Source: Solibacillus sp. R5-41 (GTDB taxonomy: Bacteria; Bacillota; Bacilli; Bacillales_A; Planococcaceae). Taken from it: DNA of 64,000 nucleotides. The notes beneath the pieces are model-generated. The model saw only the letters and a program-made list of their open reading frames with translations, did no database searches and was not told the origin of the DNA. A program made the position numbers and the translations under genes. The stretch covers positions 3,650,001-3,714,000 of the forward strand of contig NZ_CP024123.1 of assembly GCF_002736105.1 (NCBI RefSeq), in the 5' to 3' direction. This document shows, in pieces, positions 1,075-52,117 of the stretch. Each line of letters opens with the position of its first letter. Position 1 is the first letter of the stretch.

Positions 1075-1260
1075 GATTCTAAAAAAGTGCCTGCATGTTT
1101 TGTCTGGCTAAGCACATGAGCCTCACAGCTTTGTGCAAGGCCAGCCTTTATAAAATGTATCCTAATGGAGCTTTCTGAATTTATTGCGCCGCTACCGTGG
1201 GAAGCAGTGAATTCTTAGGTAGATTCCCCTTACATTGACTTACATTTTTTATTGCAAGGA
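1075..1260 (+). repeat. Mosaic intergenic repeat, module C copy 1
   Basis: Contains the block GGCTAAGCACATGAG, then GTGCAAGGCCAGCC and a tail around AGCTTTCTGAATTTATTG leading to GCGCCGC. The same blocks recur in order at 2493-2770 and, inverted, at 33990-34170. No gene is present. This copy lacks the long palindrome seen in the other two, having only a short junction (CACAGCTTTGTGCAAGG). Confidence 0.75.
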
Positions 1261-1296
1261 CAGATTTTGGTATTGACCCCGAATTTCATATGTATA

Positions 1297-1327
1297 AAAA
1301 GCTACGATTGAGTTTCGTAGCTTTTTT
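1297..1327 (+). terminator. Intrinsic terminator hairpin before the chromate transporter genes
   Basis: Stem AAGCTACGA/TCGTAGCTT with a 5-6 nt loop, flanked by A-run and T-run so it could work on both strands. It isolates the chr genes from upstream transcription. Confidence 0.7.
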
Positions 1328-1387
1328 ATATAAAATTAGTATTTACAGAATATTTAGATATACAAAGTTTTTAAGGAGGGTTGTTAC

Positions 1388-1939
1388 TTGCATATACAGC
1401 TTCAAATATTTATTGCTTTTTTCAGATCTGGAATTTTAGGTTTCGGTGGTGGTCCAACGACGATTCCGCTCGTACATAAGGAAGTCGTAACGAAATTTGA
1501 ATGGATGACGGATGAAGAGTTTTCAGATGTCATTTCTATTGGCAATACATTACCTGGACCAGTTGCTACTAAAATGGCTGGCTATATCGGCTATAGAATT
1601 GGTGGGTGGCTTGGACTCGCTACCGCATTGATTGCAACTGTACTGCCTACTGTTGTTCTCATGATTATTTTGCTCGGCTCGTTAAATCAATTTAACGACT
1701 CCAAATTTGTTAATGGCATGACTAATGGTGTTATTCCGATTGTAGCGGTCATGATGGGTGCTCTCACTTGGGACTTTATGAAAAAAGCAAAAACTTCCCT
1801 CGGCATAAAAATTGCGGGCTTAATTTTTATTGTGAGCTTTGTCGCGATGGTTCCACTGAATATTCACCCAGGAATTGTCATTTCCATTTTACTTATTTTA
1901 GCTTTCGCATTACCTGTTAAAGGAGAAAAAGCATCATGA
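1388..1939 (+). CDS. Chromate transporter, N-terminal half-size subunit (ChrA/CHR family)
   Basis: A 183-aa membrane protein of the short-chain CHR family, equivalent to one half of a full-length ChrA. It carries the diagnostic GFGGGPTTIPL near residues 18-28 and NTLPGPVATKMAGYIGY near residues 52-68, followed by four hydrophobic segments. TTG start with AAGGAGGG 7 nt upstream. Its stop overlaps the ATG of the next gene (ATGA), so the two are translationally coupled. Half-size pairs of this type (YwrA/YwrB in B. subtilis) work as heterodimers that export chromate. The substrate here is inferred from family. Confidence 0.88.
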   Translation: MHIQLQIFIAFFRSGILGFGGGPTTIPLVHKEVVTKFEWMTDEEFSDVISIGNTLPGPVATKMAGYIGYRIGGWLGLATALIATVLPTVVLMIILLGSLNQFNDSKFVNGMTNGVIPIVAVMMGALTWDFMKKAKTSLGIKIAGLIFIVSFVAMVPLNIHPGIVISILLILAFALPVKGEKAS

Positions 1940-2463
1940 CGTATTTCCATTTATTTTTAGCTTTTTTCTTCCCAAATATACTGGGATATGGTGGAGGACC
2001 ATCTGCCATCCCTTTAATTGAGCACGAAGTTGTTACAAAATATGGCTGGATGACAAATTCAGAGTTTAGTGAATTATTAGCACTGGCTAATTCTTTACCT
2101 GGTCCAATAGCAACTAAAATGGCTGGCTATATTGGTTATTCTGTTGCAGGTGTTACAGGTAGTATTATTGCGCTCTTTGCGACGATTGCCCCTTCTCTAA
2201 TTTTAATGCTTGTTTTATTAAATCTATTATATAAATATCGGCATTCTACTCGTGTAAAGCGCCTATCAAGCTTTGTATTACCGGCGATCGCTGTCCTGTT
2301 ATTGACGCTTACGTTTGATTTTTTGAAAACATCATATAATTTAAACAATATCATCCCCACGGTGTTATTAGTTATTGGTAGTTATTTTGCATTAGAGAAA
2401 TATAAAATTCACCCTGCTTTTGTTATTGTTACTGGGCTACTTATTGGTGGGTTTTTTCTTTAA
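1936..2463 (+). CDS. Chromate transporter, C-terminal half-size subunit (ChrA/CHR family)
   Basis: A 175-aa partner of the preceding gene with the same signatures, GYGGGPSAIPL and NSLPGPIATKMAGYIGY, and a similar membrane profile. It overlaps the upstream stop by 4 nt. The two proteins are paralogous to each other, as expected for the two halves of a ChrA pair with opposite membrane topology. No regulator gene (chrS/chrI type) is adjacent. Confidence 0.88.
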   Translation: MTYFHLFLAFFFPNILGYGGGPSAIPLIEHEVVTKYGWMTNSEFSELLALANSLPGPIATKMAGYIGYSVAGVTGSIIALFATIAPSLILMLVLLNLLYKYRHSTRVKRLSSFVLPAIAVLLLTLTFDFLKTSYNLNNIIPTVLLVIGSYFALEKYKIHPAFVIVTGLLIGGFFL

Positions 2464-2492
2464 ATTTGATAAAAGTGAATTCTAATTCTAAT

Positions 2493-2770
2493 AAAGTATG
2501 TCCTTATTAGGCTAGCTAAGCACATGAGCCGCACAGGTTTGTAGCACAAATCTGTACGGCTCATGTGCTCCGTGCAAGGCCAGGCCAACACGATGTTAAT
2601 CACTCAGGCGTTGCTACAAGACGTGGCGGGTTTAGCCTGAATTCCTCTGTATACGCTTAGGCTTCTAGCTTTCTGGATTGATAGCGCCGCTTCCAGTGCA
2701 AGACGGCGTTTTCTTATGGGATTGCACTTTGGACCGTTGTCAATTTACACTTTTATGAAATCCCCCTTCC
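2493..2770 (+). repeat. Mosaic intergenic repeat, module C with nested module A
   Basis: Module C begins around 2496 and includes a near-perfect palindrome at 2519-2569 (arms AGCACATGAGCCG and CGGCTCATGTGCT). After GTGCAAGGCCA the module C continuity is interrupted at about 2580-2655 by a reverse-oriented module A (GGCCAACACGATGTT, ACTCAGGCGTTGC, AGACGTGGCGGGTTTAGCCTGA). Module C then resumes with TAGCTTTCTGGATTGATAGCGCCGC. The rest up to 2960 is AT-rich with no recognisable gene. Confidence 0.75.
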
Positions 2771-2961
2771 TCAACTTATGATGATAATTTCAACGGAGTT
2801 ACAAGGAAAAAACATATGTTAAGGAAGAAAAACTTAAATTTATTTCTATATTTACTAAAATTTTAATGACGATAAATATATAAATGGAACTTATGAATCC
2901 TACATAAAAATGGGAACCCCCTCAAGCTTAGCTGATAACACTTTGTAAGAATGCAAGTTGA

Positions 2962-3126
2962 TTGGATTTAAGGGGCGACGTTGCGGACATCGCAAAAGAA
3001 ATGATGAATTTCACGAAAGCGAGTATTTTAATGCAAGCAAGCCAATATGCGATGCAGTTGCATATGCAGCAAGCCGATTTTATTTTACAGCTACTCAATA
3101 CAGGCATTCGAAAAAAGAGCCATTAG
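2962..3126 (+). pseudogene. Flagellin C-terminal remnant
   Basis: In the frame starting at 2974 the DNA reads GDVADIAKEMMNFTKASI and then continues with QASQYAMQLHMQQADFILQL before a stop at 3124. This matches the C-terminal D0 helix of bacterial flagellins (DMASEMVNLTKMNILSQASQ in Hag) followed by the LQLL ending. An in-frame TGA at 2959 and the absence of an N-terminal region or ribosome binding site show a decayed fragment rather than a gene. The downstream terminator has been split by the IS. The identification is by eye. Confidence 0.55.
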
Positions 3127-3128
3127 CA
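3111..3128. terminator. Left half of a terminator split by the IS
   Basis: AAAAAAGAGCC-A-TTAGCA here pairs with TGCTAA-C-GGCTCT followed by T-rich DNA at 4415-4434 on the other side of the IS. Together they form a bidirectional intrinsic terminator whose loop received the insertion. Confidence 0.65.
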
Positions 3129-3173
3129 TTTTGGCACTGACTACCCTTTTTGAGACAAGAATAAAACACCCTA

Positions 3174-4013
3174 TTATGCAGCCAATTGACGGTATTGAAC
3201 CGGCGATTGGCTGTTTAGTTTCGTTTGAATACGGATATTATTATAATAAGTAATGTATTCTTCGACAATCTGTATCACACGTGCATTCGTTGTGCGATAG
3301 ATATCGTCGAGATAGAACGTTTCAGACTTTAGCGTGGAATGAAACGATTCGATTGGGGAATTATCAGCTGGCGTGCCTTTGCGGGACATGCTCATGGTAA
3401 TTCCTTTTTCTTTGGCTGCTTTTTGATAAGCATAGGATGTATAAACGGAGCCTTGGTCACTATGCAGAATGCATCCTTCTGGTAGCTTAGGCAATTGATA
3501 GAGCGTATCCAACACAAAATCTGTGTCTTGTTTGATACCAGTAGTTTGTGCCACAATTTCGCCATTGTAGACATCGAGAATACTAGAAAGATACATCATC
3601 GATTGACCAAAAGGCAAGTACGTAATATCCGTGACTAGCTTCTCCATGGGCTTAGATGCTGTAAAATTGCGTGCTAATAAATTCGGTGCGACGTATGCTG
3701 GCTGCCCGGTACGCTTCCGTTTCTTCACCTTTACTTTACATTGCCAACCATATTTTTGCATAACACGCTGCACAGTCTTCCTACAAACTCCTGGGTACAG
3801 ATTAGCAACCTTTCGATAACCATATCGAAATTTATTCTGTTTGCACAAGTCGCCAATCTGCTGATCTCGAATCTCCTTTTGTGTGGATTGATCCACATCC
3901 TTTCTCCAACGATAGTATGACGAGCGACCTAAGCCTAAATGACGACAGATTTCACCAATTGGCATAACATCTTTTAATTCTTCAACTAATTGAAGTACTA
4001 CTTTTGGCGCCAC
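3174..4013 (-). CDS. IS3-family transposase OrfB (DDE catalytic subunit)
   Basis: A 279-aa integrase-core protein. An HTH_21-like N-terminus (about residues 20-75) is followed by the rve domain with the DDE acidic residues: D in VTDITYLPFG, D in LHSDQGSVYTS and E in ADNSPIESFHSTLKSE. It is translated as an OrfAB fusion after a -1 shift in orfA. The stop lies 4 bp inside the left terminal repeat. Nothing indicates inactivation. Confidence 0.93.
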   Translation of the reverse strand: MAPKVVLQLVEELKDVMPIGEICRHLGLGRSSYYRWRKDVDQSTQKEIRDQQIGDLCKQNKFRYGYRKVANLYPGVCRKTVQRVMQKYGWQCKVKVKKRKRTGQPAYVAPNLLARNFTASKPMEKLVTDITYLPFGQSMMYLSSILDVYNGEIVAQTTGIKQDTDFVLDTLYQLPKLPEGCILHSDQGSVYTSYAYQKAAKEKGITMSMSRKGTPADNSPIESFHSTLKSETFYLDDIYRTTNARVIQIVEEYITYYNNIRIQTKLNSQSPVQYRQLAA

Positions 4014-4315
4014 TTCCCTTCCAATTCCGCGTACTTTTTTAAAACTTCAATCTGTTGTTTCAACTCCAGATTCTCTGCCTGTAGCTTGGCTGTCTCGCTT
4101 TCAAATTCCGGTCCTTTGCCGAAGGCATATTGTTTACCAACTGGTTGTTTAAGACGGTGCATTTCACCATTTCGATACCAATGCATCCATCGCTTCAACT
4201 GCGTATAGTTTCGAATGTCCAATTCTTCCATTACTTCTTTTACCGGTACGTTAGCCATTCGCATTTCAATTGCCTTCATTTTCACTTCTACTGGATAACT
4301 GACTCTTGTTCCCAT
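3998..4315 (-). CDS. IS3-family transposase OrfA (HTH subunit)
   Basis: A 105-aa protein with an HTH_Tnp/helix-turn-helix N-terminus (YPVEVKMKAIEMRMANVPVK) and a C-terminal leucine-zipper-like coiled coil (AKLQAENLELKQQIEVLKKY). The ATG at 4315 has GGAGGTG 7 nt upstream. A slippery heptamer A-AAA-AAG lies at 4034-4040 in the zero frame. A -1 slip there opens directly into the orfB frame, the standard way IS3 elements make OrfAB. Confidence 0.9.
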   Translation of the reverse strand: MGTRVSYPVEVKMKAIEMRMANVPVKEVMEELDIRNYTQLKRWMHWYRNGEMHRLKQPVGKQYAFGKGPEFESETAKLQAENLELKQQIEVLKKYAELEGKWRQK

Positions 4316-4414
4316 AGAAAAACACCTCCACATTGATTATTTCAGGTTTAAGCCCCCGTTATTCAATGAAAGGTGTTTTTATTTGTCTCATGTTATTAGG
4401 TCAGTGCCTTTTTT

Positions 4415-4434
4415 TGCTAACGGCTCTCTTTTTA
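4415..4434. terminator. Right half of the IS-split terminator
   Basis: TGCTAACGGCTCTC followed by TTTTTATTTT. It complements 3111-3128 across the IS and lies at the ecsB stop, so ecsB may now lack its original terminator. Confidence 0.6.
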
Positions 4435-5610
4435 TTTTGATAATCTAATTGTTAGCTCACTTACTAGCAATATAACAATCGGGATTATAAAAAATTGCGG
4501 TTGCATCATTGCACAAACCGTTACGATGACAGCCTGTTTCACAGCGAGTAATCGAAGCAATTTCGTAACTGCTTGATTTCTTGTTTCCCGCGGGACTGGA
4601 TACAGCATATCCATACGGAATTCCCCTGCCGATAACAATGCATATTTTAATTGCAAAGTCGTGGCAAATGCTAAAGCTCCAGCGACAATCCATGTTACAA
4701 ATGGAATGTTAACAAACATCGCAATAATCGCTGAAATGGCTGTCAAACGAACCCATAAATAAAAGTGGTCATCTGTTCGAATAAATGTACGGAATACAAG
4801 ATAAGCTTGTGTATTTCCCTTTTTATATGGAATCCATTTATACGCAATATCCAGCCAAGCTCTTCGCTTAATAGACCCTTTCAAATGTGGAACTTCTGTA
4901 AAGTAATTTGCAAAGCGATAAAAGCGCAACATTCGATTTTGCTCAAGCTTAATAAAATGCTCATAAGGCACAGGTTGATTTTTCATTTTTTTATGCAATG
5001 TACCAACGTAATATGCGAGCATAATTAAAAACACAATGGCAAAAATGCCATCTGTCAAAACCGTTTGAATTGCTAAAATAGATATAACCGCTCGAACAAT
5101 TCGGTCCATCAAAATAGCTTGTCCGCGGTTCACATAACGATACGCAAATTCACTTCGGACATTTAAAAATTTCAACAAAGCAACGAACAATACCCCTAGC
5201 CAAATTTGCGACATTGTTAATTCAGTAACTTCTTTTAATAATGGAATCGTTACGATATATACAACTGCTGGTGCTAATAATTGTGACCAAAACGTCCAAT
5301 TTTTCGCCCTTTTAAAATACTGTGGCATTTGTGATTCAAGCGGTAATAAATACACTTGATCCGGTTCTTTTAATAATGTTATAGGACGGCTCAGTGCAAG
5401 CATACAGCCAACAAGGATCGCCACTAGCCACTCAGCAGGAAAATCATTTTGCACAACTTTTAGCCATTCGCTATATTGATAGCCCCCTGCGCCAATTATA
5501 AAGACAAAGACAATCGCAATATGCCCCGTAAATACGAAACGCATATACTTCATAACTTCGCCTATATAATGCTCAAACCGCTTCGTCCAAACACTATGCA
5601 TGCTGTTCAT
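4432..5610 (-). CDS. ecsB: ABC transporter permease EcsB
   Basis: A 392-aa multi-spanning membrane protein (about 9-10 hydrophobic segments) of the EcsB family, the permease partner of EcsA. In B. subtilis the Ecs transporter affects secretion, competence, biofilm formation and site-2 protease RasP activity. The exported substrate is not firmly known. The ATG at 5610 follows AAGGAG by 9 nt and overlaps the ecsA 3' end by 17 nt. No ecsC follows. An IS instead lies immediately beyond the stop. Confidence 0.9.
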   Translation of the reverse strand: MNSMHSVWTKRFEHYIGEVMKYMRFVFTGHIAIVFVFIIGAGGYQYSEWLKVVQNDFPAEWLVAILVGCMLALSRPITLLKEPDQVYLLPLESQMPQYFKRAKNWTFWSQLLAPAVVYIVTIPLLKEVTELTMSQIWLGVLFVALLKFLNVRSEFAYRYVNRGQAILMDRIVRAVISILAIQTVLTDGIFAIVFLIMLAYYVGTLHKKMKNQPVPYEHFIKLEQNRMLRFYRFANYFTEVPHLKGSIKRRAWLDIAYKWIPYKKGNTQAYLVFRTFIRTDDHFYLWVRLTAISAIIAMFVNIPFVTWIVAGALAFATTLQLKYALLSAGEFRMDMLYPVPRETRNQAVTKLLRLLAVKQAVIVTVCAMMQPQFFIIPIVILLVSELTIRLSK

Positions 5611-6343
5611 TGTCTTGCTCCTTAGTCATCGCAATATATAAATCATCAAGGGTTGCAGTAGGCATTTGAAATGCTTTACGTAAATCGTCCATCGTACCTT
5701 GTGCACGAACACGTCCCTCATGAAGTAAAATAATGCGGTCACAATGCTTTTCTGCTGTCGATAAAATATGCGTCGACATTAAAATAGCGGCCCCAGCACG
5801 TTTTTTCGCGTCCATTTGATCTAACAACGATTGAATGCCAAGCGGATCAAGTCCGACAAATGGTTCATCAATAATGTACAGACTCGGATTGACTAAAAAC
5901 GCACACATAATCATCACTTTTTGACGCATACCTTTTGAAAAATGCGATGGGAACCAGTTTAATCGTTTTTCCATACGGAACTCTTTCAGCAGTACCTCAG
6001 ATCGTTCGGCTAATGTCTTTTCATCTAAACCGTAAGCCATTGCTGTCAATTCTAGGTGCTCTTTTAATGTTAATTCTTCATACAATACGGGCGTTTCAGG
6101 AATATAAGAAAAACTCGAACGGTATTTATCCATGTTTTCCTTTAGTGTCACACCATTTAAACGAATTTCGCCTGCTCGCGGCAATAATGTACCGATAATA
6201 TGTTTAATCGTCGTACTTTTCCCCGCTCCGTTTAAACCAATTAATCCAACCAATTCCCCTTTGTTCATTTCAAAAGATAAATCTTGAATTACAGGCTTAC
6301 GCGTATATCCACCTGTTACATTTTGTACGTGTAAAATTGTCAC
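5594..6343 (-). CDS. ecsA: ABC transporter ATP-binding protein EcsA
   Basis: A 249-aa ATPase with Walker A GLNGAGKS (about residues 36-43), signature SKGMRQK and Walker B LYIIDEP followed by FVGLD. Of two GTG codons, 6343 is preferred. GAGGAG lies 8 nt upstream of it, whereas the GTG at 6352 overlaps that ribosome binding site. It is the first gene of the ecsAB operon, divergent from hit, as in B. subtilis. Confidence 0.93.
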   Translation of the reverse strand: MTILHVQNVTGGYTRKPVIQDLSFEMNKGELVGLIGLNGAGKSTTIKHIIGTLLPRAGEIRLNGVTLKENMDKYRSSFSYIPETPVLYEELTLKEHLELTAMAYGLDEKTLAERSEVLLKEFRMEKRLNWFPSHFSKGMRQKVMIMCAFLVNPSLYIIDEPFVGLDPLGIQSLLDQMDAKKRAGAAILMSTHILSTAEKHCDRIILLHEGRVRAQGTMDDLRKAFQMPTATLDDLYIAMTKEQDNEQHA

Positions 6344-6448
6344 AGTCGTCACTCCTCTTTATATAATGTAGTTTATCAAAAAAGCCACAAATATTCAGTT
6401 CACATATGGTAAAATAGAGAAAATCTTTCTTAAAAGGAGTCGAGCTCG

Positions 6449-6868
6449 ATGAGTGATTGCCTATTTTGTAAAATTATTAACGGTCAAATACCAAGCTTAA
6501 AAGTATATGAAGATGATCATGTATACGCGTTCATGGACATTATGCCATTAACGAAGGGCCACACATTATTAATTCCTAAAACGCACTGCAAAGATTTATT
6601 TGAAATGCCTGAAGAAGTGGCTCGTAATTTATATGCAGCGGCACCAAAAGTCGCCAATGCTATTAAAGCAGCGTTTAACCCAACTGGCATGAATACTATG
6701 AACAATAATGGTGAATCAGCTGGACAAACCGTATTCCATTACCATCTGCATCTCATTCCACGCTATGATGAAAAAGATGGTTTAAAAGTAGAATGGAATA
6801 GTAGACAAGCTGAATTCCCTACTGAAATTTTAACAGAAATTGCTGGGCAAATTAGAGAAAATTTATAA
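6449..6868 (+). CDS. hit: HIT family nucleotide hydrolase
   Basis: A 139-aa histidine-triad protein. The catalytic motif HYHLHLIP gives H97, H99 and H101, and an N-terminal CLFCKI pair may bind zinc. HIT proteins of this branch hydrolyse adenosine phosphoramidates or dinucleoside polyphosphates in the cytosol. ATG with AAAAGGAG 10 nt upstream. Its position next to ecsA matches B. subtilis hit (yhaE). Confidence 0.93.
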   Translation: MSDCLFCKIINGQIPSLKVYEDDHVYAFMDIMPLTKGHTLLIPKTHCKDLFEMPEEVARNLYAAAPKVANAIKAAFNPTGMNTMNNNGESAGQTVFHYHLHLIPRYDEKDGLKVEWNSRQAEFPTEILTEIAGQIRENL

Positions 6869-6891
6869 ATTCTAGACTTTACTAGTTTCTT

Positions 6892-6925: not shown

Positions 6926-6971
6926 CATAGTTTTTGCGTACAATCATGAATAAGTTTTCGCTAATGGCAAT

Positions 6972-7022: not shown

Positions 7023-7026
7023 ACAG

Positions 7027-9741: not shown

Positions 9742-9749
9742 TAATCAAT

Positions 9750-9905
9750 TACACCTTGGCTAACTCTTGTCCATATTTTAAATTGTGCTTAGGCCTGCAC
9801 GATGCAGGTCAGTTAGCCTTTGTCTCATTGATGCGACGAACTTAGGCTAACATCCTAAACTAACTCACATTAAAATCTGTGACATCCGTCGCGGCATTTT
9901 TTTCA
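9750..9905 (-). repeat. Mosaic intergenic repeat, modules B and A (inverted)
   Basis: On the minus strand it reads GGATGTCACAGATTTTA (module B start, 9880-9897) followed by a diverged module A (AGGCTAACTGACC, TGCATCGTGCAGGCCT, 9790-9850). The order B-A is the reverse of that at 21373-21521. No gene is present. Confidence 0.6.
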
Positions 9906-9931
9906 TTCAGCGTTTTTTTCTGAATAAAAAT

Positions 9932-9968
9932 AAAAAAGGTGCACACGCTAAAGCGGGCACCTTTTTTT
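9932..9968. terminator. Bidirectional terminator
   Basis: AAAAAAGGTGC, inner CGCT/AGCG, then GCACCTTTTTTT. It could end the yjcZ-type gene on the minus strand or the upstream plus-strand genes. Confidence 0.75.
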
Positions 9969-11158: not shown

Positions 11159-11259
11159 ATTTCACTTCTTTCATCAGCAGTCTCCACCTCTATAGGTGTC
11201 GATTTGAATACGGAATTTAGTTTCTAATCCAAATATTAGCTGAGAGAAGTTAAGTCCCT

Positions 11260-11334
11260 GGCAGATGTCACAGAATCTGATTTGTGCGTACACAAATCAG
11301 ATTCCGGACGCAATTATGCCTAGGCATAATTGAT
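11260..11334 (+). repeat. Mosaic intergenic repeat, module B copy
   Basis: GGCAGATGTCACAGAATCTG, a palindromic centre (CTGATTTGTG/CACAAATCAG), then CGGACGCAATTATGCC and AGGCATAATTGAT. It sits directly before the prsA terminator. Same module as 21437-21521 and 52033-52117. Confidence 0.75.
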
Positions 11335-11374
11335 AAAAAAAAAAGCACAGCAAATATTGCTGTGTCTTTTTTTA
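11335..11374. terminator. Terminator between prsA and the PhnA-like gene
   Basis: Stem AAAGCACAGCAA/TTGCTGTGTCTTT, with A- and T-runs serving both convergent genes. Confidence 0.85.
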
Positions 11375-11385
11375 TGAATTTCTCT

Positions 11386-11721
11386 TTAGTTTTTCTTCAC
11401 AAATTCTGATTTTAACTTCATTGCACCGAAACCATCAATTTTACAATCAATGTTGTGATCGCCTTCTACTAGGCGGATGCTCTTCACACGTGTACCAATT
11501 TTAAGTGTAGATGAACTACCTTTTACCTTTAAATCTTTAATAACCGTTACAGTGTCACCATCTGCTAATAAATTTCCGTTAGCGTCACGAACTACTAGCC
11601 CTTCTTCAATGGCTTCTTCTGTTTGTGACCATTCATGTGCACATTCTGGACAAACGAACATTTGTCCATCTTCATACGTATATTCTGAGCCGCAATTCGG
11701 GCAATTTGGTAATTTCTCCAT
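11386..11721 (-). CDS. PhnA/YjdM-family zinc-ribbon protein
   Basis: A 111-aa cytosolic protein with an N-terminal zinc ribbon ([21 protein letters not shown]) and a C-terminal PhnA SH3-like domain ([20 protein letters not shown]). Despite the old label alkylphosphonate uptake, the family has no firm transport role. The ATG at 11721 is used because GGAGG is 8 nt upstream; the in-frame GTG at 11736 overlaps it. Confidence 0.9.
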
Positions 11722-11837
11722 TATCCTAACCTCCACTCAATGATTACTCTATACTGTCATACTTACAAAACGAAAACAAGCCAATGCTGCTTAAGGTACT
11801 TATTTCACTCACAACTCATTATGATTAAGCTGTTTTT

Positions 11838-11905
11838 GGGCTACCACAATATTGGTCACAAAGGCATATTCACAGGAAATGACAGCTTCAGCCTTCGTTC
11901 CTCTT
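11838..11905 (-). repeat. Mosaic repeat, diverged module A overlapping a gene end
   Basis: The plus strand reads GGGCTACCACAATATTGGTC, then ACAAAGGCATATTCACAGGA and TTCAGCCTTCGTTCCT. It aligns with GGGCTAACACGACGTTGGTC and the following bases at 33626-33690. It overlaps the last codons of the formate/nitrite transporter gene. Confidence 0.6.
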
Positions 11906-14130: not shown

Positions 14131-14136
14131 AGCTTG

Positions 14137-14187
14137 CTGACTGCCTCTACTACTTCAGCTTGGGTTTGAACCCCTGCTGAATCAAGT
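14137..14187 (-). repeat. Mosaic repeat, module D (inverted)
   Basis: On the minus strand: ATTCAGCAGGGGTTCAAACC, then CAAGCTGAAGTAGTAGAGGC. It resembles 21332-21372 and 19308-19345. It abuts the yhaM stop codon. Confidence 0.55.
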
Positions 14188-19000: not shown

Positions 19001-19029
19001 GGTATCAAATTTAATTACGAACAACTATT

Positions 19030-19300
19030 GTGATAGAGACATACTTTTCGTTTTGTATAGCAAAGAGAGCTGGTGGGTGGTGTGAACCAGTGTATACGAC
19101 GACAATGTTCCACTCTTGAATAGAATAGCTGAACATTTCAGTAGGTTATTCCGGCCCATGCACGTTACGCATATAGATAAGGTTGCACATAATTTTTCCA
19201 CATATTATGGCAACGAATTAGGGTGGTACCGCGATACTATATTTCCAATAGCCTTTCGCCCCTTACAGTAACATGTAAGGGGTGGAAGGCTTTTTATTTT
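19030..19300 (+). promoter_or_regulatory. Serine-specific T-box riboswitch upstream of serA
   Basis: All T-box landmarks are visible. They are the AGAGAGCTGG stem I base, the distal GGTGTGAACCAG arm, specifier loop GAATAGCTGAAC with AGC (Ser) at 19127-19129, and the T-box AGGGTGGTACCGCG at 19220-19233. A terminator follows (stem AGCCTTTC.CCCCTTAC / GTAAGGGG.GGAAGGCT, T-run at 19291). Uncharged tRNA-Ser would pair with AGC and the T-box bulge to prevent termination. The codon agrees with the downstream serine biosynthesis gene. Confidence 0.92.
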
Positions 19301-19307
19301 ATCCTCG

Positions 19308-19425
19308 TTCAGTGGGTAATTGAACGCCCACTGAATTGTGGAACTCTGGCTAAACTGGAGGAACAAATACTAAAAACGTCACGTCCTACGGCAACGCCTG
19401 AGTGACCTGCATCGTGCAGGCCTTA
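19308..19425 (+). repeat. Mosaic repeat, modules D and A, between T-box and serA
   Basis: Module D (TTCAGTGGG, CCCACTGAA, GGAACTCTGGCTAA) is followed by module A (ACGTCACGTCCTACGGCAAC, GCCTGAGTGACC, TGCATCGTGCAGGCCT). It sits between the T-box terminator and the serA ribosome binding site, adding about 120 nt of structured leader. Confidence 0.7.
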
Positions 19426-19456: not shown

Positions 19457-21079
19457 ATGGTAACAAAATTAAAAGAAACAGAAATGAAAACAATTAATGT
19501 ATTTATCGCGGATCCACTAAGTGAAGATGGAATTTTCCCACTTCGCCAAGAGACTGAATTAGATTTAAACATTATTATTGATACAGGTTTAACACCTGAA
19601 CAATTAGTTTCTAAAATTGCAGATGTAGATGTATTACTTGTTCGTTCTCAAACGACTGTTACGCGTGAAATCATCGAAGGTGCAAAAAATTTAAAGCTAA
19701 TCGGTCGTGCAGGTGTTGGCGTGGATAATATTGATTTAACTGCTGCAACTGAGCACGGGATTATTGTCGTAAACGCTCCAGACGGAAATACAAACTCTGC
19801 TGCTGAGCATACTATTGCCATGATGACTTCACTTGCTCGTTTCATTCCACAAGCATTTAACACATTAAAAAATGGTAAATGGGATCGTAAATCTTATGTA
19901 GGTGTAGAATTAAAAAATAAAACAATGGGCGTTATCGGTATGGGACGTATCGGTGCTGAAGTTGCTTATCGTGCGAAAGGTCAACGTATGAACGTCATTG
20001 CATACGACCCATTCCTAACAGAAGAACGCGCTAAAGAACTTGGCGTAACAAAAGGAACAGTTGATGAAGTTTGTGCAGCTGCTGAATTTATTACAGTGCA
20101 TACACCATTACTACCTGAAACACGTAATATCATTAACAAGGAGCGCTTTGCTATTATGAAAGATGGCGTTCGCATTATTAACTGCGCACGTGGTGGTATT
20201 ATTAACGAGGATGATTTATATGATGCAATCGTTGAAGGTAAAGTAGCTGGAGCTGCACTTGACGTATTCATACAAGAGCCAGCAACAGATCATAAATTAC
20301 TTACATTACCACAAGTAATTGCAACACCACATTTAGGTGCATCTACTGTTGAAGCACAAGAGTCAGTTGCAGTTGACGTGTCAAACGACATTATTAAATT
20401 CTTTAAATCAGGTACGGTTACAAACCCAGTAAACATGCCTTCAATTCCAAAAGAAAAGCTTGCACAAGTGGAGCCATTCTTTGCTTTAGCTGAAAAATTA
20501 GGTAAATTCCTAATTCAAGTTACAGAAGAAAGCATCCAGGAATTAAACATTTCTTACGCTGGTGAGGTAGCAAACTTTGATGTTCGTCCTTTAACAGCGA
20601 ACGCGATTAAAGGCTTATTATCTACAAACCATGGTACACACGTTAACGATGTAAATGCTCGTTACTTAGCTGAACGTATTGGCATGAAAATTAATGAACA
20701 TAAAACGACAACTGCTAAAGGGTTTACAAATTTAATTACAGTTGAAATCGTGACAGATACAGAAAAACATACTGTTGCTGGTACATTATTAAACGGTCTT
20801 GGCGCACGTATTGTTAAAGTAGAAGGCTTTGTTGTTGATGTTGTTCCAAATGGCAATCTTCTTTACATTAAAAATACAGATAAACCTGGTGCAATTGGCC
20901 GCGTAGCTACAAAATTAGCAGAAAAAGAAATTAATATCGCAACAATGCAAGTAGGACGTGACCAAGTTGGTGGATCAGCTGTTATGATGCTTGTAGTTGA
21001 TAATGCCGTAACAACAGAAGATTTAAATTATGTGGCTCAACTCGAAAATATTGATGAAGTAAAAGCAATTACACTTTAA
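19457..21079 (+). CDS. serA: D-3-phosphoglycerate dehydrogenase
   Basis: A 540-aa NAD-dependent enzyme for the first step of serine synthesis. Domains in order: substrate/NAD-binding 2-hydroxyacid dehydrogenase core (GRAGVGVDNID; GMGRIGAEVAYR; catalytic His in IATPHLGAST), an allosteric substrate-binding domain, and a C-terminal ACT domain (KPGAIGRVATKLAEKEINIA) that usually senses serine. The ATG at 19457 has AAAGGGAGA upstream. Expression is controlled by the serine T-box. It completes the pathway with serC upstream. Confidence 0.96.
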   Translation: MVTKLKETEMKTINVFIADPLSEDGIFPLRQETELDLNIIIDTGLTPEQLVSKIADVDVLLVRSQTTVTREIIEGAKNLKLIGRAGVGVDNIDLTAATEHGIIVVNAPDGNTNSAAEHTIAMMTSLARFIPQAFNTLKNGKWDRKSYVGVELKNKTMGVIGMGRIGAEVAYRAKGQRMNVIAYDPFLTEERAKELGVTKGTVDEVCAAAEFITVHTPLLPETRNIINKERFAIMKDGVRIINCARGGIINEDDLYDAIVEGKVAGAALDVFIQEPATDHKLLTLPQVIATPHLGASTVEAQESVAVDVSNDIIKFFKSGTVTNPVNMPSIPKEKLAQVEPFFALAEKLGKFLIQVTEESIQELNISYAGEVANFDVRPLTANAIKGLLSTNHGTHVNDVNARYLAERIGMKINEHKTTTAKGFTNLITVEIVTDTEKHTVAGTLLNGLGARIVKVEGFVVDVVPNGNLLYIKNTDKPGAIGRVATKLAEKEINIATMQVGRDQVGGSAVMMLVVDNAVTTEDLNYVAQLENIDEVKAITL

Positions 21080-21148: not shown

Positions 21149-21331
21149 AATTTTATTCATCCCAACGGCTTCATACTCCCCCTCCCACTTTCATATTGTT
21201 AATATTAAGTATTTTCCGAATATTGATTTGTGTTTACTTAAAGGAATTGTATACTAGTATTATATTTACTAACTTGCTTCAGCAGAATTTCGATACTTCT
21301 ATAAGTGGAGGATGAACGCTAAATATGCACT

Positions 21332-21521
21332 AAATTCAGTGTGGGTTCAACCCTAACTGAAGTAGTAGAACTCAGGCTAATAACACCGCGTCGTGCGGCA
21401 ACGCCTGAGTGACCAACATCGTGTTGGCCTAATGCCCCGGCGGATGTTACAGATTTTTTTAGGTGTTTTTCGAGCGCGCACGAAAAAAATCTGGACACAA
21501 TTATTCCGAGGCGCAATTGAT
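21332..21521 (+). repeat. Mosaic repeat, complete D-A-B copy
   Basis: Module D at 21332-21372 (TTCAGTGTGGGTTCAACCC, CTGAAGTAGTAGAACTC). Module A at 21373-21430 (AGGCTAATAACACCGCGTCG, CAACGCCTGAGTGACC, AACATCGTGTTGGCC). Module B at 21437-21521 (GGCGGATGTTACAGATTTTT, AAAAATCTGGACACAATTAT, GCGCAATTGAT). It is the fullest copy in the window and ends 4 bp before the ribosome binding site of the next gene. Confidence 0.75.
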
Positions 21522-21538
21522 TATAAGGGTGGGTGTTT

Positions 21539-33465: not shown

Positions 33466-33524
33466 TTTACTATATAAATTGAACTAAAGAATCCCTCTTA
33501 TAAAAATCATCCTAAAAAGGGGGA

Positions 33525-33723
33525 GTTGATTTCCATTCCAGTCCGGACGCTTTCCGCGGACACGGCTCCAACTAACTTGTTTCGAGATGCATCTCGAAAC
33601 AAGTGGATTTTCGGGCTAACACGACGTTGGTCACAAAGGCGTTGTCACAGGACGTGACGGTTTTAGCCTTTGTTCCTTTGCTGCTGTTCCCGCAGGAGTC
33701 GCCTCCCCTTCATTCCAATCAAC
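33525..33723. repeat. Composite Bacillus repeat with GTTGATT ends, carrying an inverted module A
   Basis: The ends are GTTGATT (33525) and AATCAAC (33723). Inner blocks CCGGACGCTTTCCGCGGAC and GCTGTTCCCGCAGGAGTCGC belong to a repeat common in Bacillales. The middle holds a hairpin (CTTGTTTCGAGATG/CATCTCGAAACAAG) and module A inverted (GGGCTAACACGACGTTGGTC, AAGGCGTTGTCACAGGACGT, TTTTAGCCTTTGTTCC). No gene. Confidence 0.75.
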
Positions 33724-33989
33724 TACTTCTATTCAATTTTCCACCAATATAATTCCTAATTATTTTCTTCCTAATATAAAGTTAGTTTCATATTTTCGAA
33801 TCAAATATTGCACTATTAGTTCAACACTAAAATCTGTCTTGTAATATATTCGTACTTGCAACATATACCGATTGAGCTCACTTTTGCAGCATGTTTTGGT
33901 ACTTAAAAGGTTCGGTCATGTGCAAATTTTGTCTGATTCTTTCTCCCCAATTGCTCCAAAAATAGGATGGTTTTTTCCTATCGGGATGA

Positions 33990-34170
33990 AGATTTACTTA
34001 GCATGACGCCGCCTCCCACGGTAGCGGCGCACTAAATTAAGAAAGCTACAGCAGGACAAACTTTAAAAAGGCTGGCCTTGCACAAAGCACAAAGATGAGT
34101 CGTACAGATTTGTGCAACAAAGCTGTGTGACTCATGTGCTTAGCCAGCCAAACAAGCACGTACTTTATTA
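33990..34170 (-). repeat. Mosaic repeat, module C (inverted)
   Basis: On the minus strand it reads TAATAAAGTACGTGCTTGTT, GGCTAAGCACATGAGTCACA, an inverted arm around TGTACGACTCAT, GTGCAAGGCCAGCC, GCTTTCTTAATTTAGTGCGC, and CCGTGGGAGGCGGCG. It matches 1075-1260 and 2493-2770. The stretch 33730-33985 shows nothing recognisable. Confidence 0.75.
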
Positions 34171-34237
34171 GAATGCATAATAGAAAACTACATCAATAGA
34201 ATAGAATCTTTAGTTTAACTTATATATTAAGAATATT

Positions 34238-46872: not shown

Positions 46873-46877
46873 AACAA

Positions 46878-46919
46878 AAGGCATGAGGAGCAAAAATATT
46901 TGCGCTCCTCATGCCTTCT
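46878..46919. terminator. Terminator between spo0M and trmL
   Basis: AAGGCATGAGGAGC/GCTCCTCATGCCTT, 14 bp, convergent genes. Confidence 0.8.
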
Positions 46920-46923
46920 CTGA

Positions 46924-47397
46924 TTATTTTAACCCTGGATAATTTTGCTGACGTAATGCTTCATAAATTACAATTGCTGCGGTATTAGATAAATTTAACG
47001 AACGTATATGATCACTTTGTGGAATACGTAAACACATATTTGCACGCTGTTCGGCAAAATCTTTCGGTAAGCCTGTCGTTTCTCTGCCAAACATAAAATA
47101 AATATCACGCGTAACATCACTAAAATCATGCGTTGTAAACGGCTCATCGCTATACGTTTCAATTAAATAAACATCGCCATCTTTACTATATTCAATAAAA
47201 TCCTCTAGTGAATCATGGTACACCACATTCACATGCTCCCAATAGTCCAATCCAGCACGTTTCAACATTTTATCATCTGTTGAAAAGCCTAACGGACGGA
47301 TTAAATGAAGTGATGTATTTGTCCCGGCACATGTTCTTGCAATATTTCCCGTATTCGCAGGAATTTCTGGTTGGTATAAAACAATATGATTTGGCAC
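46924..47397 (-). CDS. trmL: tRNA (cytidine/uridine-34) 2'-O-methyltransferase
   Basis: A 157-aa SPOUT-fold (trefoil-knot) enzyme: ALYQPEIPANTGN-like start (VLYQPEIPANTGNIARTCAG), FMFGRETTGLP and the knot motif IRSLNLSNTAAIVIYEALRQ. It methylates the wobble nucleotide of leucine tRNAs using SAM. The B. subtilis counterpart is CspR. It follows queG by 3 bp, so two wobble-base modification genes share an operon. Confidence 0.94.
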   Translation of the reverse strand: MPNHIVLYQPEIPANTGNIARTCAGTNTSLHLIRPLGFSTDDKMLKRAGLDYWEHVNVVYHDSLEDFIEYSKDGDVYLIETYSDEPFTTHDFSDVTRDIYFMFGRETTGLPKDFAEQRANMCLRIPQSDHIRSLNLSNTAAIVIYEALRQQNYPGLK

Positions 47398-47400
47398 TTT

Positions 47401-48549
47401 TTATATCCTTCTTTCTACATTTGTTAACATGGCTAGCCCTTTTTCGATTTCTGCTAGCACTTCTTCGTCTTGCTCTTTTATTTGAGCGGCCAGTAAAGCT
47501 TCATTCGCATCTTCTGACCCAATTTTACCAATTGCCCACGCAGCAGTTCCACGTATAACAGGACGCTCATCTTTTAGCATGAGCTCAATTAAATCGGGCA
47601 CTGCACTTTCTTCCTTAAAATGAGCCAGTGCTATAATCGCGTTTCGTTGAATTGGTTTCTTTCCACGCCAAGAGCCCGATACATGTCCGAACTTCGCTTT
47701 AAATTCTTTATTGGAAATTGATAGTAATGGTTGTAATAACGGCTTTGCCAGCTCTGGATCGGGTGTAAATTCATCGTGAATCCAATTAAGCTTGCCTTTA
47801 TTTTTGGGGCAAACGGTTTGGCAAGTATCACAGCCATACAGCCGGTTCCCAATTTTCGTTCGAAATTCATCCGGTAAAAAGCCTTTTGTTTGCGTTAAAA
47901 AAGCGATACAACGCTGGGAATTTAACTGTCCAGGAGCTACTATGGCACCGGTTGGACAAACATCGATACATAGCGTACATTCCCCACATTCATCTTCCAT
48001 CGGCATATCTGGTGCAAACGGGATATTCGTCATGATTTCGCCTAAGTAAACATATGAGCCGAATTCAGGGGTAATAATCGAACAGTTTTTTCCGCTCCAG
48101 CCAATTCCAGCGCGCTGTGCAACGGCACGATCCACAAGCTCTCCTGTATCAACCATGGATTTTGTCTTCACAGAAGGCACTCTCTCTCGTAGCCAAGCCT
48201 CAATCAATTGAAGCCGTTCGCGTACTGCCGTATGATAATCAACACCCCAAGATGCGCGGCAAAATACGCCTCTGCGCGCTCCCTTTTTCCCTTGAGGGGC
48301 GTCGTTCATTCGCGAAGGATACGCTAGTGCAATTGCCACAATACTTTCTGCTCCGTCCAGTAATTTTAAAGGCACTGTACGAAGTTCTACATCAGACTCC
48401 TCAAAACCCGACTGAAAGCTAAGCTCTTGCTGACGACGCAAACGATTTTTCAATTCATGAAAGGGGGCAGCAGTAGTAAAACCTATTTTATCGACACCGA
48501 TTGATTTAGCATATTCGATTAATTCAGCCTGAAGCTGATGGACTTTCAT
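47401..48549 (-). CDS. queG: Epoxyqueuosine reductase
   Basis: A 382-aa cobalamin- and Fe-S-dependent enzyme for the last step of queuosine synthesis in tRNA. Two [4Fe-4S] motifs: CGECTLCIDVCPTGAI and YGCDTCQTVCPKNKG. N-terminal DUF1730 (VDTGELVDRAVAQRAGIGWS) and C-terminal HEAT-like repeats (VPDLIELMLKDERPVIRGTA). ATG at 48549 with AGGAGA 7 nt upstream. Confidence 0.95.
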   Translation of the reverse strand: MKVHQLQAELIEYAKSIGVDKIGFTTAAPFHELKNRLRRQQELSFQSGFEESDVELRTVPLKLLDGAESIVAIALAYPSRMNDAPQGKKGARRGVFCRASWGVDYHTAVRERLQLIEAWLRERVPSVKTKSMVDTGELVDRAVAQRAGIGWSGKNCSIITPEFGSYVYLGEIMTNIPFAPDMPMEDECGECTLCIDVCPTGAIVAPGQLNSQRCIAFLTQTKGFLPDEFRTKIGNRLYGCDTCQTVCPKNKGKLNWIHDEFTPDPELAKPLLQPLLSISNKEFKAKFGHVSGSWRGKKPIQRNAIIALAHFKEESAVPDLIELMLKDERPVIRGTAAWAIGKIGSEDANEALLAAQIKEQDEEVLAEIEKGLAMLTNVERRI

Positions 48550-48614
48550 TTCATTCTCTCCTAACAAATGGTACAATTAATTAATGAATAATAAACAAAA
48601 AACAGGTGATGTAT

Positions 48615-49304
48615 ATGAATATTTCTATCAATCAATCACTATTCACTATGAATGACCAGTTTAAAATTGGTCTTATTCATTATAACAAAATTGTTGTGGC
48701 AGAATCTCCTCAAATGATTAAAGGACGCACACAGTTATATCAAGAACATTTATTTTTAGACTTGCAAGATAGTCCATTAACCGAACGCCCTGGCATTCAA
48801 GAATGGCGCAAACTTTGGAAGTTTTTTGGTGCAGATCCAAATCGCTACCGTCATTCAGCGGAAAGTCTTATGCGCCGTATCGCAAAACAAAATTATTTAA
48901 CACCTTTTCATTCGGCTGTTGATTTGAATAATTTCTTTTCACTGCAATATGAAATTCCGATTGGTATTTACGACATCGCTACAATTCAAGATCCTATCGA
49001 AATTGCTCTTGGGGATGAAAATACAGGCTATGATGGGTTGAATGGTCGGTATAATGCATTAACAAACATCCTTTACTCAAAAGATAAGCTAGGCGCTTTT
49101 GGCAGTCCGTTTGTTGATTCAAGTCGCACAGCCGTTACCGAAAAAACAACTGATGCGCTCCAAATATTTTATTTGCGACCTTCTTTATCCGTGGATGATT
49201 GTGAGCAGTTACTTGCAACAGCTGGTAAAATGTTTACACAAGTAAATGGAGGAGATTTTAAAGTCTCTCTTCTATCCTTTCACAACCAATCAACTACATA
49301 TTAA
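48615..49304 (+). CDS. B3/B4 tRNA-binding domain protein
   Basis: A 229-aa protein matching the B3/B4 domain of the phenylalanyl-tRNA synthetase beta chain: WRKLWKFFGADPNRYRHSAE, LNNFFSLQYEIPIGIYDIAT, and ILYSKDKLGAFGSP. Standalone forms are common in Bacillales and may edit or bind tRNA; this is not demonstrated. ATG at 48615 with AGGTGAT upstream. Divergent from queG-trmL, another tRNA-related unit. Confidence 0.78.
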   Translation: MNISINQSLFTMNDQFKIGLIHYNKIVVAESPQMIKGRTQLYQEHLFLDLQDSPLTERPGIQEWRKLWKFFGADPNRYRHSAESLMRRIAKQNYLTPFHSAVDLNNFFSLQYEIPIGIYDIATIQDPIEIALGDENTGYDGLNGRYNALTNILYSKDKLGAFGSPFVDSSRTAVTEKTTDALQIFYLRPSLSVDDCEQLLATAGKMFTQVNGGDFKVSLLSFHNQSTTY

Positions 49305-49316
49305 GGAGTGATTTCC

Positions 49317-49826
49317 ATGGCAATCAATTTAGCAGAAGCTGTGAAGCTAAAAAGTATTTTAACTAAAAAAATCCAAGAACTAACTTCCTCTGTTCACCAA
49401 GTGTCCCATACGATTATTGAAAAAGGGGAACAGCCTGTAAAGCCTGAATATACACTTGAAATGATCGAAGCTGAACTAAAGGAGATTCGAAAAGATTCTC
49501 GTAAGCTGGATTCCCTTATATATCGTGCAAATATTGACAACACGATTTTATTTAAAGATGAGGTAATGCCTATTGTGGAAGCAATTGAGCTTGCGATACA
49601 ATTGCGTGCAGAGGCTGCCTTTTGTAAGCAGCTAGGTATGACCGAGAAAGAATCCTATTATCATAGCTCTGGTGAAACAATTCTTTATAATGTTGCACTT
49701 TTTGACCCGATGCATTATCGTAATCAATCAAATGAACTCGAAAAAGAAGCCCATCGTTTATCCAACTTAATTAACGCAAAAAATTATCAAGTTGAAATTG
49801 AATTTGATGATAGCAAATATTTTTAA
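49317..49826 (+). CDS. DIP1984/septicolysin-like family protein
   Basis: A 169-aa helical cytosolic protein: NLAEAVKLKSILTKKIQELT and SLIYRANIDNT, similar to the DIP1984 (septicolysin-named) family of unknown function. ATG at 49317 with AAGGAGTGA upstream. It lies 12 bp after the B3/B4 gene, likely one operon. Confidence 0.55.
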   Translation: MAINLAEAVKLKSILTKKIQELTSSVHQVSHTIIEKGEQPVKPEYTLEMIEAELKEIRKDSRKLDSLIYRANIDNTILFKDEVMPIVEAIELAIQLRAEAAFCKQLGMTEKESYYHSSGETILYNVALFDPMHYRNQSNELEKEAHRLSNLINAKNYQVEIEFDDSKYF

Positions 49827-49831
49827 ACTCT

Positions 49832-50056
49832 ACTCGGTGCGGTGAGACTCCAAACCGAGTAATAACGAGTGTATCCTTTGCCTTTAAAGCAATTAACTAG
49901 TAAAACCAATGACTTATTAACATTTACCTCTGTTACCTTTTACCAATGACCAACTATTGTAAAAGCAAACAACAATTAGATGATGATTTTCCTATATACA
50001 CTCGTTATTGAGAAGGACCTACCCCGCGCTAAATAGTGTGAGGTAGGTCCTTTCTT
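49832..50056 (+). ncRNA. Candidate structured RNA or 3' UTR element
   Basis: Three nested features follow the stop codon. A hairpin ACTCGGT/ACCGAGT lies at 49832-49860. A perfect 14-nt long-range pair, AATAACGAGTGTAT (49861-49874) with ATACACTCGTTATT (49996-50009), encloses a 121-nt G-poor segment. An intrinsic terminator AAGGACCTACC/GGTAGGTCCTT lies at 50013-50052. The enclosed segment has two copies of ACCAATGAC (49905, 49942). No protein is encoded. It could be an sRNA, a 3' UTR fold or a small transposable repeat. Confidence 0.45.
50013..50056. terminator. Terminator between DIP1984-like gene and ldcA
   Basis: AAGGACCTACC/GGTAGGTCCTT followed by TCTTAT; convergent genes. Confidence 0.8.
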
Positions 50057-50148
50057 ATATGCTAAATGTTGATACTTAAATTTTTCGATATAATTAATTA
50101 AGCCTTACAAAGATGTAGTTGACATGGCATCTCCTCCAACAAAATGAT

Positions 50149-51060
50149 TTATTCTACCCCAGGTAAAATACGTAATGTTTTTTCATTTGCGTCTAAAATA
50201 ACATCTACGCCAAGTGGTATTCCTATATTGGGTTCACAGTGACCTATTTGGAAACCTGCTAAAGCGGGTTTGTTCAGCGGCTTTAAATAATGCTCCAACA
50301 ATTGGATGACATCTTCCTCTGTTTCATTTGGACTTGGCAGTTTAAAATTCCCAATGACAAATCCTGCGACTTGCTCTAACTTTCTTGCTAAACGCAAATG
50401 GTTCAACATCCCGTCAATTTGCTCTAATGACTCTCCTATATCTTCTATTAAAAGAATTTTCCCACGCATATCTAGTTCAAATTTCGTACCTAACATACTA
50501 ACAATGCGATTTAAGTTACCACCTATCATTTCGCCTCTAACCGTGCCCTCGACAATTGTATGTAACGGCGAAATTTGTTCATCATACTGAATTTCAATCG
50601 GTGTGAAGAGCTGCTGGAACATTTTTTTCGATAATTCATCTAACTCCCCTTTAGATCTTGCTAACATCGGTCCGTGGAATGTCACTAAGTTTGCATAGTC
50701 ATTGACCGTTGTATGTAGCAGGGTCACATCTGAAAAGCCCCAAATAATTTTCGGATTTTCTTCAATTAATGGGTAGCTAATTTTATCAATAATTCGACCT
50801 AAGCCATAACCACCTTTCACACAAAAAATGGCCTTCACCTCTTTATCTTGAATCATCGCATGTAAATCCTGGACACGCTCCGCATCCGTACCCGCTAAAT
50901 AACCCTCATACGGCTGAATCGTATTTCCAAGCTTATAGCGCAAGCCTAATTCATCTAAAAATGCTAATTGTTGCCCAATCTTCTCCATATTTAAAGGGCT
51001 GCTTAATGCAACAAGCCCTACTGTATCTCCAATTTGTAATCTGGCAGGACGGATTTTCAT
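50149..51060 (-). CDS. ldcA: LD-carboxypeptidase (peptidase S66)
   Basis: A 303-aa enzyme that removes the terminal D-Ala from tetrapeptide stems of muropeptides. The catalytic triad is visible: Ser110 in WGFSDVT, Glu206 in LLIEDIGE and His274 in QIGHCEPN. Also the CVKGGYGLGRIID loop. No signal peptide, so it is cytosolic and recycles peptidoglycan. Similar MccF-type immunity proteins share the fold. ATG with GGAGG upstream. Confidence 0.88.
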   Translation of the reverse strand: MKIRPARLQIGDTVGLVALSSPLNMEKIGQQLAFLDELGLRYKLGNTIQPYEGYLAGTDAERVQDLHAMIQDKEVKAIFCVKGGYGLGRIIDKISYPLIEENPKIIWGFSDVTLLHTTVNDYANLVTFHGPMLARSKGELDELSKKMFQQLFTPIEIQYDEQISPLHTIVEGTVRGEMIGGNLNRIVSMLGTKFELDMRGKILLIEDIGESLEQIDGMLNHLRLARKLEQVAGFVIGNFKLPSPNETEEDVIQLLEHYLKPLNKPALAGFQIGHCEPNIGIPLGVDVILDANEKTLRILPGVE

Positions 51061-51176
51061 AGTTATTGCCTCCTTTTACTTTTATGGCTATTGTATCATA
51101 GCGAATTATGTAAAGTGCGTTGCAAATAACTCATGCAGCCCACTCTACTTAATTGGATATTCTAAAATCGAATTAG

Positions 51177-51208
51177 AAAAGGAGTGCCTCATTCAGCACT
51201 CCTTTTTC
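51177..51208 (-). terminator. Terminator of nagB
   Basis: AAAAGGAGTGC/GCACTCCTTTT. Confidence 0.88.
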
Positions 51209-51215
51209 ACTGTCA

Positions 51216-51950
51216 TTATTTTACGCCTGTATAAATTACTGTAACATCTTTATGATTGTGTAACGCGCTTGCTGGGAAGTCCGTTGTGATTTCACCACTG
51301 CGCAAACGATCAAATGCTTCTTGTTTTGATGCACCTGATATTAATAGCACTACTTTTTTTGCATTCATAATTGTTCGAATCCCCATCGTAATTGCATGCG
51401 TAGGAACATCATCAATTGTATCAAAATAGATTTGATTGGCCTCACGTGTTGATTGTGTCAACTCAACCATATTTGTCTCTAACTCAAACGCTGTACCCGG
51501 CTCATTAAATCCGATATGACCATTAACTCCAATTCCTAATAACTGAATATCAACGCCACCCGCCGCAGCAATTGCAGCATCATATTCTGCAGTAGCTGTC
51601 GCTATTTCTTTTGGGTTGCCCGTTGGCACATGAATATTTTCACGCTTCATATCAATATAATTGAATAAATTCTCATCCATAAAGTAGTGATAACTTGCTT
51701 CATTATTAGGCATAATCCCAATATATTCATCTAAATTAAATGATTTCGCCTCAGCAAATGATAGTTCCCCAGCTTGATACGCTTTTACTAATTCCTTATA
51801 AAAGCCTTCTGGTGTACTACCCGTCGCCATTCCAAAAACACTTGTCTTCACTAGCTTTAATTGCTCTTTAAAAATAGTCGCAGCAATTTTGCTCATTTCT
51901 TCATAATTTGCTGCTTCAATCCACTTCATATTTGTAGTCACACTTGCCAT
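51216..51950 (-). CDS. nagB: Glucosamine-6-phosphate deaminase
   Basis: A 244-aa enzyme converting glucosamine-6-phosphate to fructose-6-phosphate and ammonia. Motifs: GMATGSTPEGFY, SFNLDEYIGI (general base Asp) and GIGVNGHIGFNEPG (catalytic His and Glu). The N-terminus has about seven residues more than usual; the first ATG is kept because GGGAAATAA precedes it. nagA and the nagR regulator are not adjacent. With ldcA it fits cell-wall recycling. Confidence 0.94.
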   Translation of the reverse strand: MASVTTNMKWIEAANYEEMSKIAATIFKEQLKLVKTSVFGMATGSTPEGFYKELVKAYQAGELSFAEAKSFNLDEYIGIMPNNEASYHYFMDENLFNYIDMKRENIHVPTGNPKEIATATAEYDAAIAAAGGVDIQLLGIGVNGHIGFNEPGTAFELETNMVELTQSTREANQIYFDTIDDVPTHAITMGIRTIMNAKKVVLLISGASKQEAFDRLRSGEITTDFPASALHNHKDVTVIYTGVK

Positions 51951-52032
51951 TTATTTCCCAACTTTCTTCATGTTTTATGTAATTTATCTTCGTTTAGTCG
52001 GTGTTCAAACACTCACTAGAAGATAAAGTCTC

Positions 52033-52117
52033 AGGCGGATGTCACAGATTTTGAAGAGAGTTAATTGTGCAAGTACAATTCAAAATCTGGACGCAATTAC
52101 GCCAAGGCGTAATTGAT
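52033..52117 (+). repeat. Mosaic repeat, module B copy
   Basis: GGCGGATGTCACAGATTTTG, an inner AATTGTGC/GTACAATT dyad, CAAAATCTGGACGCAATTAC, and AGGCGTAATTGAT. It lies between nagB and the isd operon. From 52120 to 52360 the DNA is AT-rich with no gene. Confidence 0.75.

Follow-up and report, generated by a model that had tools for sequence, protein, structure and literature searches.

Dispersed intergenic repeats of Solibacillus sp. R5-41 are gene-less mobile DNA of at least two kinds, many sharing the RNA-like sequence RF01690

Short palindromic repeats recur between the genes in 64,000 nt of Solibacillus sp. R5-41 (bases 3,650,001–3,714,000 of a 4.28 Mb genome in a single contig; hereafter the window), which raises the question of whether they are interchangeable modules, copies of one known repeat, or several mobile sequences with a component in common. 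A first-pass annotation of the window had described recurring blocks, A to D, at eleven places, and repeats are present at 11/11. They are mobile DNA without genes, of at least two kinds, accompanied by a further repeat, E, and many of them share an RNA-like passenger, block A, which is Rfam family RF01690 (Bacillaceae-1 RNA) by covariance-model gathering score. The modular description stands for A, which recurs across contexts, while D and B are the two ends of one element and C and E are separate repeats. A single known annotated repeat of fixed order accounts for the identity of A only and does not explain how the blocks are assembled.

The filled and empty sites are seen in the nearest species compared, here G011, the serA of which is 92% identical to that of R5-41, with long aligned blocks of the window mostly 82–92% identical; the SerC of R5-41 has 87–90% identity to that of three named Solibacillus genomes. 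In the alignment of 864 kb of R5-41 against 900 kb of G011, there are 58 copies of the B part in R5-41. G011 lacks 33 of these and shares 2, has other sequence in place of 13, and 10 are unresolved; the 33/35 absence figure excludes the last two classes (23/58). The reverse comparison, from the 47 B copies of G011, gives 22 absent from R5-41, 3 shared, 11 with other sequence and 11 unresolved. For C the figures, in the same order, are 6, 0, 6 and 4 from R5-41 and 3, 0, 6 and 1 from G011, and for A they are 17, 2, 9 and 4 from R5-41 and 11, 2, 7 and 6 from G011. Such sites bear out the earlier suggestion that this is non-autonomous mobile DNA and not one MITE (miniature inverted-repeat transposable element). 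B is contained in 36 of the 61 indels of 90–700 bp between the two genomes, so that elements with B are a main source of the intergenic differences in the compared regions.

The D-B element is about 130–250 nt long and contains no genes. D and B as separate modules are ruled out by their constant order among the copies listed. These have a left end that contains the D palindrome and in many cases one more hairpin, TCCTCCACTTCTATAAGTGGTGGATGAATG; GCC..GGCGGATGTCACAG comes next, followed by a long hairpin, and the right end has a hairpin ending GCGTAATTGAT. Indeed, the two sites first described as "B alone", 11260 and 52033, each have a left end resembling D, beginning at 11165 and 51988 respectively, which also makes D and B one element. 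The model for B, R1, has four matches in the window (E 5.7e-5 to 4.8e-20), the best of which, at 52038, is one of the model's own source sequences, and besides these there are two weak reverse-strand echoes and one further match at E 0.46. Across the genome at least 47 match rows were obtained with 40 of 255 candidates scored, some of these being pieces of one copy.

The proposal that the stems evolve by compensation holds for B. In 22 of 24 listed cores, the two with altered ends being omitted, 97.5% of 484 cells in the hairpin are paired and 7 of its 22 pairs are altered on both sides; neither value is reached by any of 500 shuffles, and slid versions of the hairpin pair at 24–38%. The left palindrome has two subtypes, with arms TTTAAC/GTTAAA or TTTATC/GATAAA, so that both arms are changed, and the left arms are at least 10/13 complementary in 58 of 109 copies. 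One full copy folded as DNA gives a z of -7.4. Hairpins are therefore found near both ends of D-B, as in a non-autonomous IS200/IS605 element, and the ends are not inverted repeats of one another, the end-to-end local score being only 13.5 for the typed consensus ends.

The points of insertion can be read from the indels themselves, 21 of the 36 that contain B having been read by hand, and what follows on the target is limited to these readable sites. The clearest junction is at 334249 of R5-41, where G011 has CTTAA, the element runs CTTGATTC...GTAATTGAT and is followed by TATAG, and R5-41 reads TTTAATATAATAG. In the empty allele, the sequence just 5' of the join is TTAA at 12 of the 21 sites, ATAA and TTAT at 3 each, and CTAA, GTAA and TTAC at one each, placing the insertions 3' of a short TTAA-like site. 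No target duplication is visible at 19 of the 21. The boundaries of the element, its target, the usual lack of duplication, the lack of inverted ends, the covariation, the differences in position from G011 and a similarity of the left end to those of IS605-type elements are observed directly on the readable sites.

The last of these was measured on three IS605-type left ends, which were chosen by eye. Against that of L279, which lies beside tnpA in a relative of the same family, the D-B left end has a BLAST E of 2.8e-4 and a local score of 67, the best of 2000 shuffles scoring 45; against the two TnpB element families of G011, the score is reached by 0 and 1 of 2000 shuffles respectively. The TnpB elements of G011 start with TTTAT. 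There are 19 TnpB matches in that genome (L308, L316, L325 and others), and the 11 that were compared fall into these two families.

The TTAA-like site, the usual absence of duplication, the covarying hairpins and the IS605-type left end together lead to the reading of D-B as IS200/IS605-like. IS200/IS605 elements have neither inverted repeats nor target duplications, and a guide sequence selects the tetra- or pentanucleotide 3' of which they insert (PMC7290912, PMC8266576). The most likely reading, given a probability of roughly 0.7, is that D-B was moved as a non-autonomous element of this kind, the enzyme and the single-strand route being inferred. D-B would then be a gene-less element functioning like the ends of an IS200/IS605-family transposon; a Y1 (HUH) transposase provided in trans would recognize the hairpins near both of its ends in single-stranded form, and the excised element would be joined just 3' of a TTAA- or TTAT-like site without duplication. 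Over the target 5-mer, the left arm and an inner arm are 70.5% complementary (38 of 109 copies examined), the mean of 2000 shuffles being 60.9% and their maximum 67.4%.

D-B resembles the PATEs (palindrome-associated transposable elements) of the IS200/IS605 family: it has no genes, its ends are palindromic and are not inverted repeats, duplication is usually absent, it inserts 3' of a short target, and its left end is like that of IS605-type elements. It differs from them in its abundance (58 B parts within 864 kb), neither TnpA nor TnpB being found in the genome, in carrying RF01690, and in that the best-matching TnpA and TnpB loci searched yielded no autonomous partner sharing its right end. 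REP (repetitive extragenic palindromic) sequences with their TnpA-REP (PMC8266576) share with D-B the high copy number of intergenic palindromes and the HUH logic, although D-B elements are longer and no Y1 protein is found in R5-41.

A number of results weigh against this reading. Neither a Y1 transposase (TnpA) nor TnpB was found in the R5-41 genome, and B is present at 2 of 62 TnpA/TnpB loci of relatives (best matches only), in each case as a neighbour and never as the end of the element. When the D-B consensus is compared with 27 TnpB loci by plain BLAST, its left end has no match better than E 0.2 at the end of a TnpB element. The arm of D-B that is complementary to the target lies 3' of the left hairpin, on the opposite side from the known guide, and in the D-A-B copies A takes the place of the inner arm expected to pair with the target, yet such copies occupy sites that are empty in G011. 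At 2 of the 21 hand-read sites the element is flanked on each side by a short repeat, TAA at R5-41 3671272 (window 21273) and TTTTT at 585232, at about four the right join is ragged, and 15 of the 36 indels lie outside the hand-read set. The automatic junction test recognizes the two ends of the element in 25 of 36 indels and only 5 junctions free of gaps, a shortfall due largely to a misplaced left-end pattern; the conclusions rest on the hand-read junctions, and the pattern-based counts of TTAA/TTAT targets (15/39 for D-A-B, 24/69 for A-free copies), which share this fault, are not used. The orientation bias of D-B is also weak, at 36/55 in R5-41 (p 0.03) and 24/37 in G011 (p 0.10).

Turning to the passenger, RF01690 has at least 99 copies above the gathering threshold in R5-41, with 150 of 532 candidates scored. 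Five of these are in the window (E 1.2e-4 to 2.3e-11), at 2585–2651, 9794–9861 and 33616–33682 on the minus strand and 19354–19420 and 21361–21427 on the plus strand. Copies of the family may lie near rRNA operons. At least one flank matches a dispersed repeat in 91 of the 99 copies (D-B in 76, C in 6, E in 9), 26 of these 91 on one flank only, and the remaining 8 match on neither. For the 91, the interpretation of A as a stand-alone RNA gene is rejected. Counted by eye, the B hairpin encloses about 20 copies, of which about 12 share its orientation and 8 are opposed to it, and about 10 of the 99 follow or lie within another A, the host A resuming downstream in 4.

Among 151 relatives, with at most 31 candidates scored per genome so that copy numbers are floors, RF01690 is present in 80 and B in 47. 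Genome G063 has 15 identical copies of A in similar E-type repeats and G029 has 11 in E-type repeats, which shows that the association of RF01690 with repeats is not limited to R5-41. In Table 1 of PMC2864571 its discoverers mark RF01690 as "certainly" an RNA, and one survey lists it among the most abundant small-RNA families (PMC9029176); the available parts of these two papers and of PMC5764928 do not describe it as mobile.

How D-B and RF01690 came to be so widespread can be explained in other ways. That neither enzyme is found in R5-41, and that the sole Y1 match of G011 (L302) has a stop, would be expected if the D-B copies are now immobile relics, spread by an IS605-type element since lost from the lineage. 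This is a real possibility at somewhat under even odds; the positions of D-B differ between close species, and B is in 16/16 members of the genus, of which 9 have a Y1 match and 7 do not, so that the enzyme would have to have been lost repeatedly or to reside on other replicons. The covariation of the stems, the listing of RF01690 as an RNA and the orientation of A, 69 of the 99 copies pointing with replication if the terminus is placed at half the genome (p 1e-4), could instead mean that the elements are structured RNAs, processing or termination signals, retained for their function, their insertion being incidental. Genes share the tendency in orientation, however, which may explain it. Covariation is equally expected of hairpins in a single-strand DNA element, the target-site pattern points to a recombinase, and only 2 of the 35 callable B copies of R5-41 are at positions common to G011, all of which makes retention as RNA quite improbable.

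The IS200/IS605-like reading of D-B leaves the movement of A itself to be considered. RF01690 rides inside D-B, C and E, and beside or inside its own copies, and has probably been spread chiefly by these hosts. The variety of its positions (between D and B, inside B both ways round, in C, in E, and beside or inside A) could also be produced if RF01690 moves independently, as a unit of about 75 nt able to insert on its own into palindromic repeats in either orientation, its own copies included. In one orthologous D-B, A is present in R5-41 and not in G011, and at R5-41 539183 there is a D-B where G011 has A, without D or B, at exactly the same place. The G011 copy of the former is also deleted around the site, however, so that the lack of A may be a deletion, and the lone A may be a remnant. 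Among 27 indels with a difference of 45–100 bp there is none in which A alone has cleanly entered an element that is otherwise shared, and in the E-type repeats of G063 and G029 the copies of A travel with the host, which leaves independent hopping doubtful. An extension of it is unlikely, namely that RF01690, as a portable RNA-like cassette of about 75 nt, moves itself into palindromes of three or more unrelated mobile repeats in either orientation, nests within itself and has been selected for aiding the spread or tolerance of its hosts.

C is a separate MITE-like element with imperfect inverted ends, perhaps with a TA duplication. In one copy the terminal inverted repeats are TATATAAGTTAAAC and TATATATGTTGAAC, and TA is present on both sides at two or three clean sites, the other printed sites being ragged. 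In these two features it is like the TA-duplicating MITEs, which are of Tc1/mariner/IS630 type, and it differs from them in that no IS630-type partner with matching ends was found; R5-41 has one DDE_3 fragment, where no match to the C ends is better than chance, and for lack of a matching transposase C is not filed as IS630-type. The genome-wide search for C (40 of 71 candidates scored) gives at least 45 match rows, a number of these being fragments of a single copy. The remaining dispersed repeat, E, was delimited by eye as GTTGATTTCC...GGAAATCAAC and carries A. One intergenic spot holds C in R5-41 (503820) and D-A-B in G011 (569228).

In the window, C is present on the plus strand at 1012–1281, where G011 has 4 bp, and at 2485–2740, where it contains the minus-strand A at 2585–2651 and is absent from G011. 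The latter C-A element sits where part of a gene is missing: 2985–3127 is the 3' remnant of a gene, presumably flagellin-like, which in G011 is a 283-amino-acid open frame at the same place. The opposite case is also seen, a C in G011 where the window has none (8913/8914). At 33475–34224 there is a composite of E (about 33527–33715), with A on the minus strand (33616–33682), and C on the minus strand (about 33986–34226), the whole 750 bp being absent from G011. The block reported at 33525 is this E with A inside, and that at 33990 is the C.

The D-B copies in the window vary in completeness. That at 9744–9926 (minus strand) has A (9794–9861, same orientation) inside the B hairpin, and a shortened remnant of it is present in G011. 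The copy at 11165–11334 (plus strand) has a degenerate left end and a B core at 11264–11334 and is absent from G011 and from L091–L093, while that at 51988–52117 (plus strand), with a TTTAT-type left end and a B core at 52038–52117, is absent from G011. So too are the D-A-B element at 21273–21523 (plus strand; A at 21361–21427, B core at 21443–21521) and a remnant of 55 bp at 14132–14186 (minus strand) consisting of the left end, D, alone. At 19303–19424 (plus strand), D precedes a partial A, consisting of its 5' part, and a full A (19354–19420); here G011 has an A in common and not the D. A T-box leader (19021–19266) lies upstream of the gene at 19457–21079, presumably SerA-like. The degenerate A-like stretch at 11833–11902 (minus strand) is 80% identical to 33608–33677 and is not matched by any Rfam family at E up to 5. 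At that limit, the Rfam scan of the window gives five weak matches besides the T-box and RF01690, two of which (11323–11404 and 9901–9968, E 2.1 each) overlap or touch D-B, far below gathering scores; B, C and D have no gathering-level match in the window.

That the expected transposase was not found in R5-41 makes the question of what mobilizes such orphan elements a testable one. RF01690 is listed as a candidate non-coding RNA gene, whereas in R5-41 it is found chiefly as a part of repeats that are dispersed and for the most part mobile; such repeats match at least one flank of all but eight of the 99 copies. Copy counts and guesses at function that are based on RF01690 would need to be revised.

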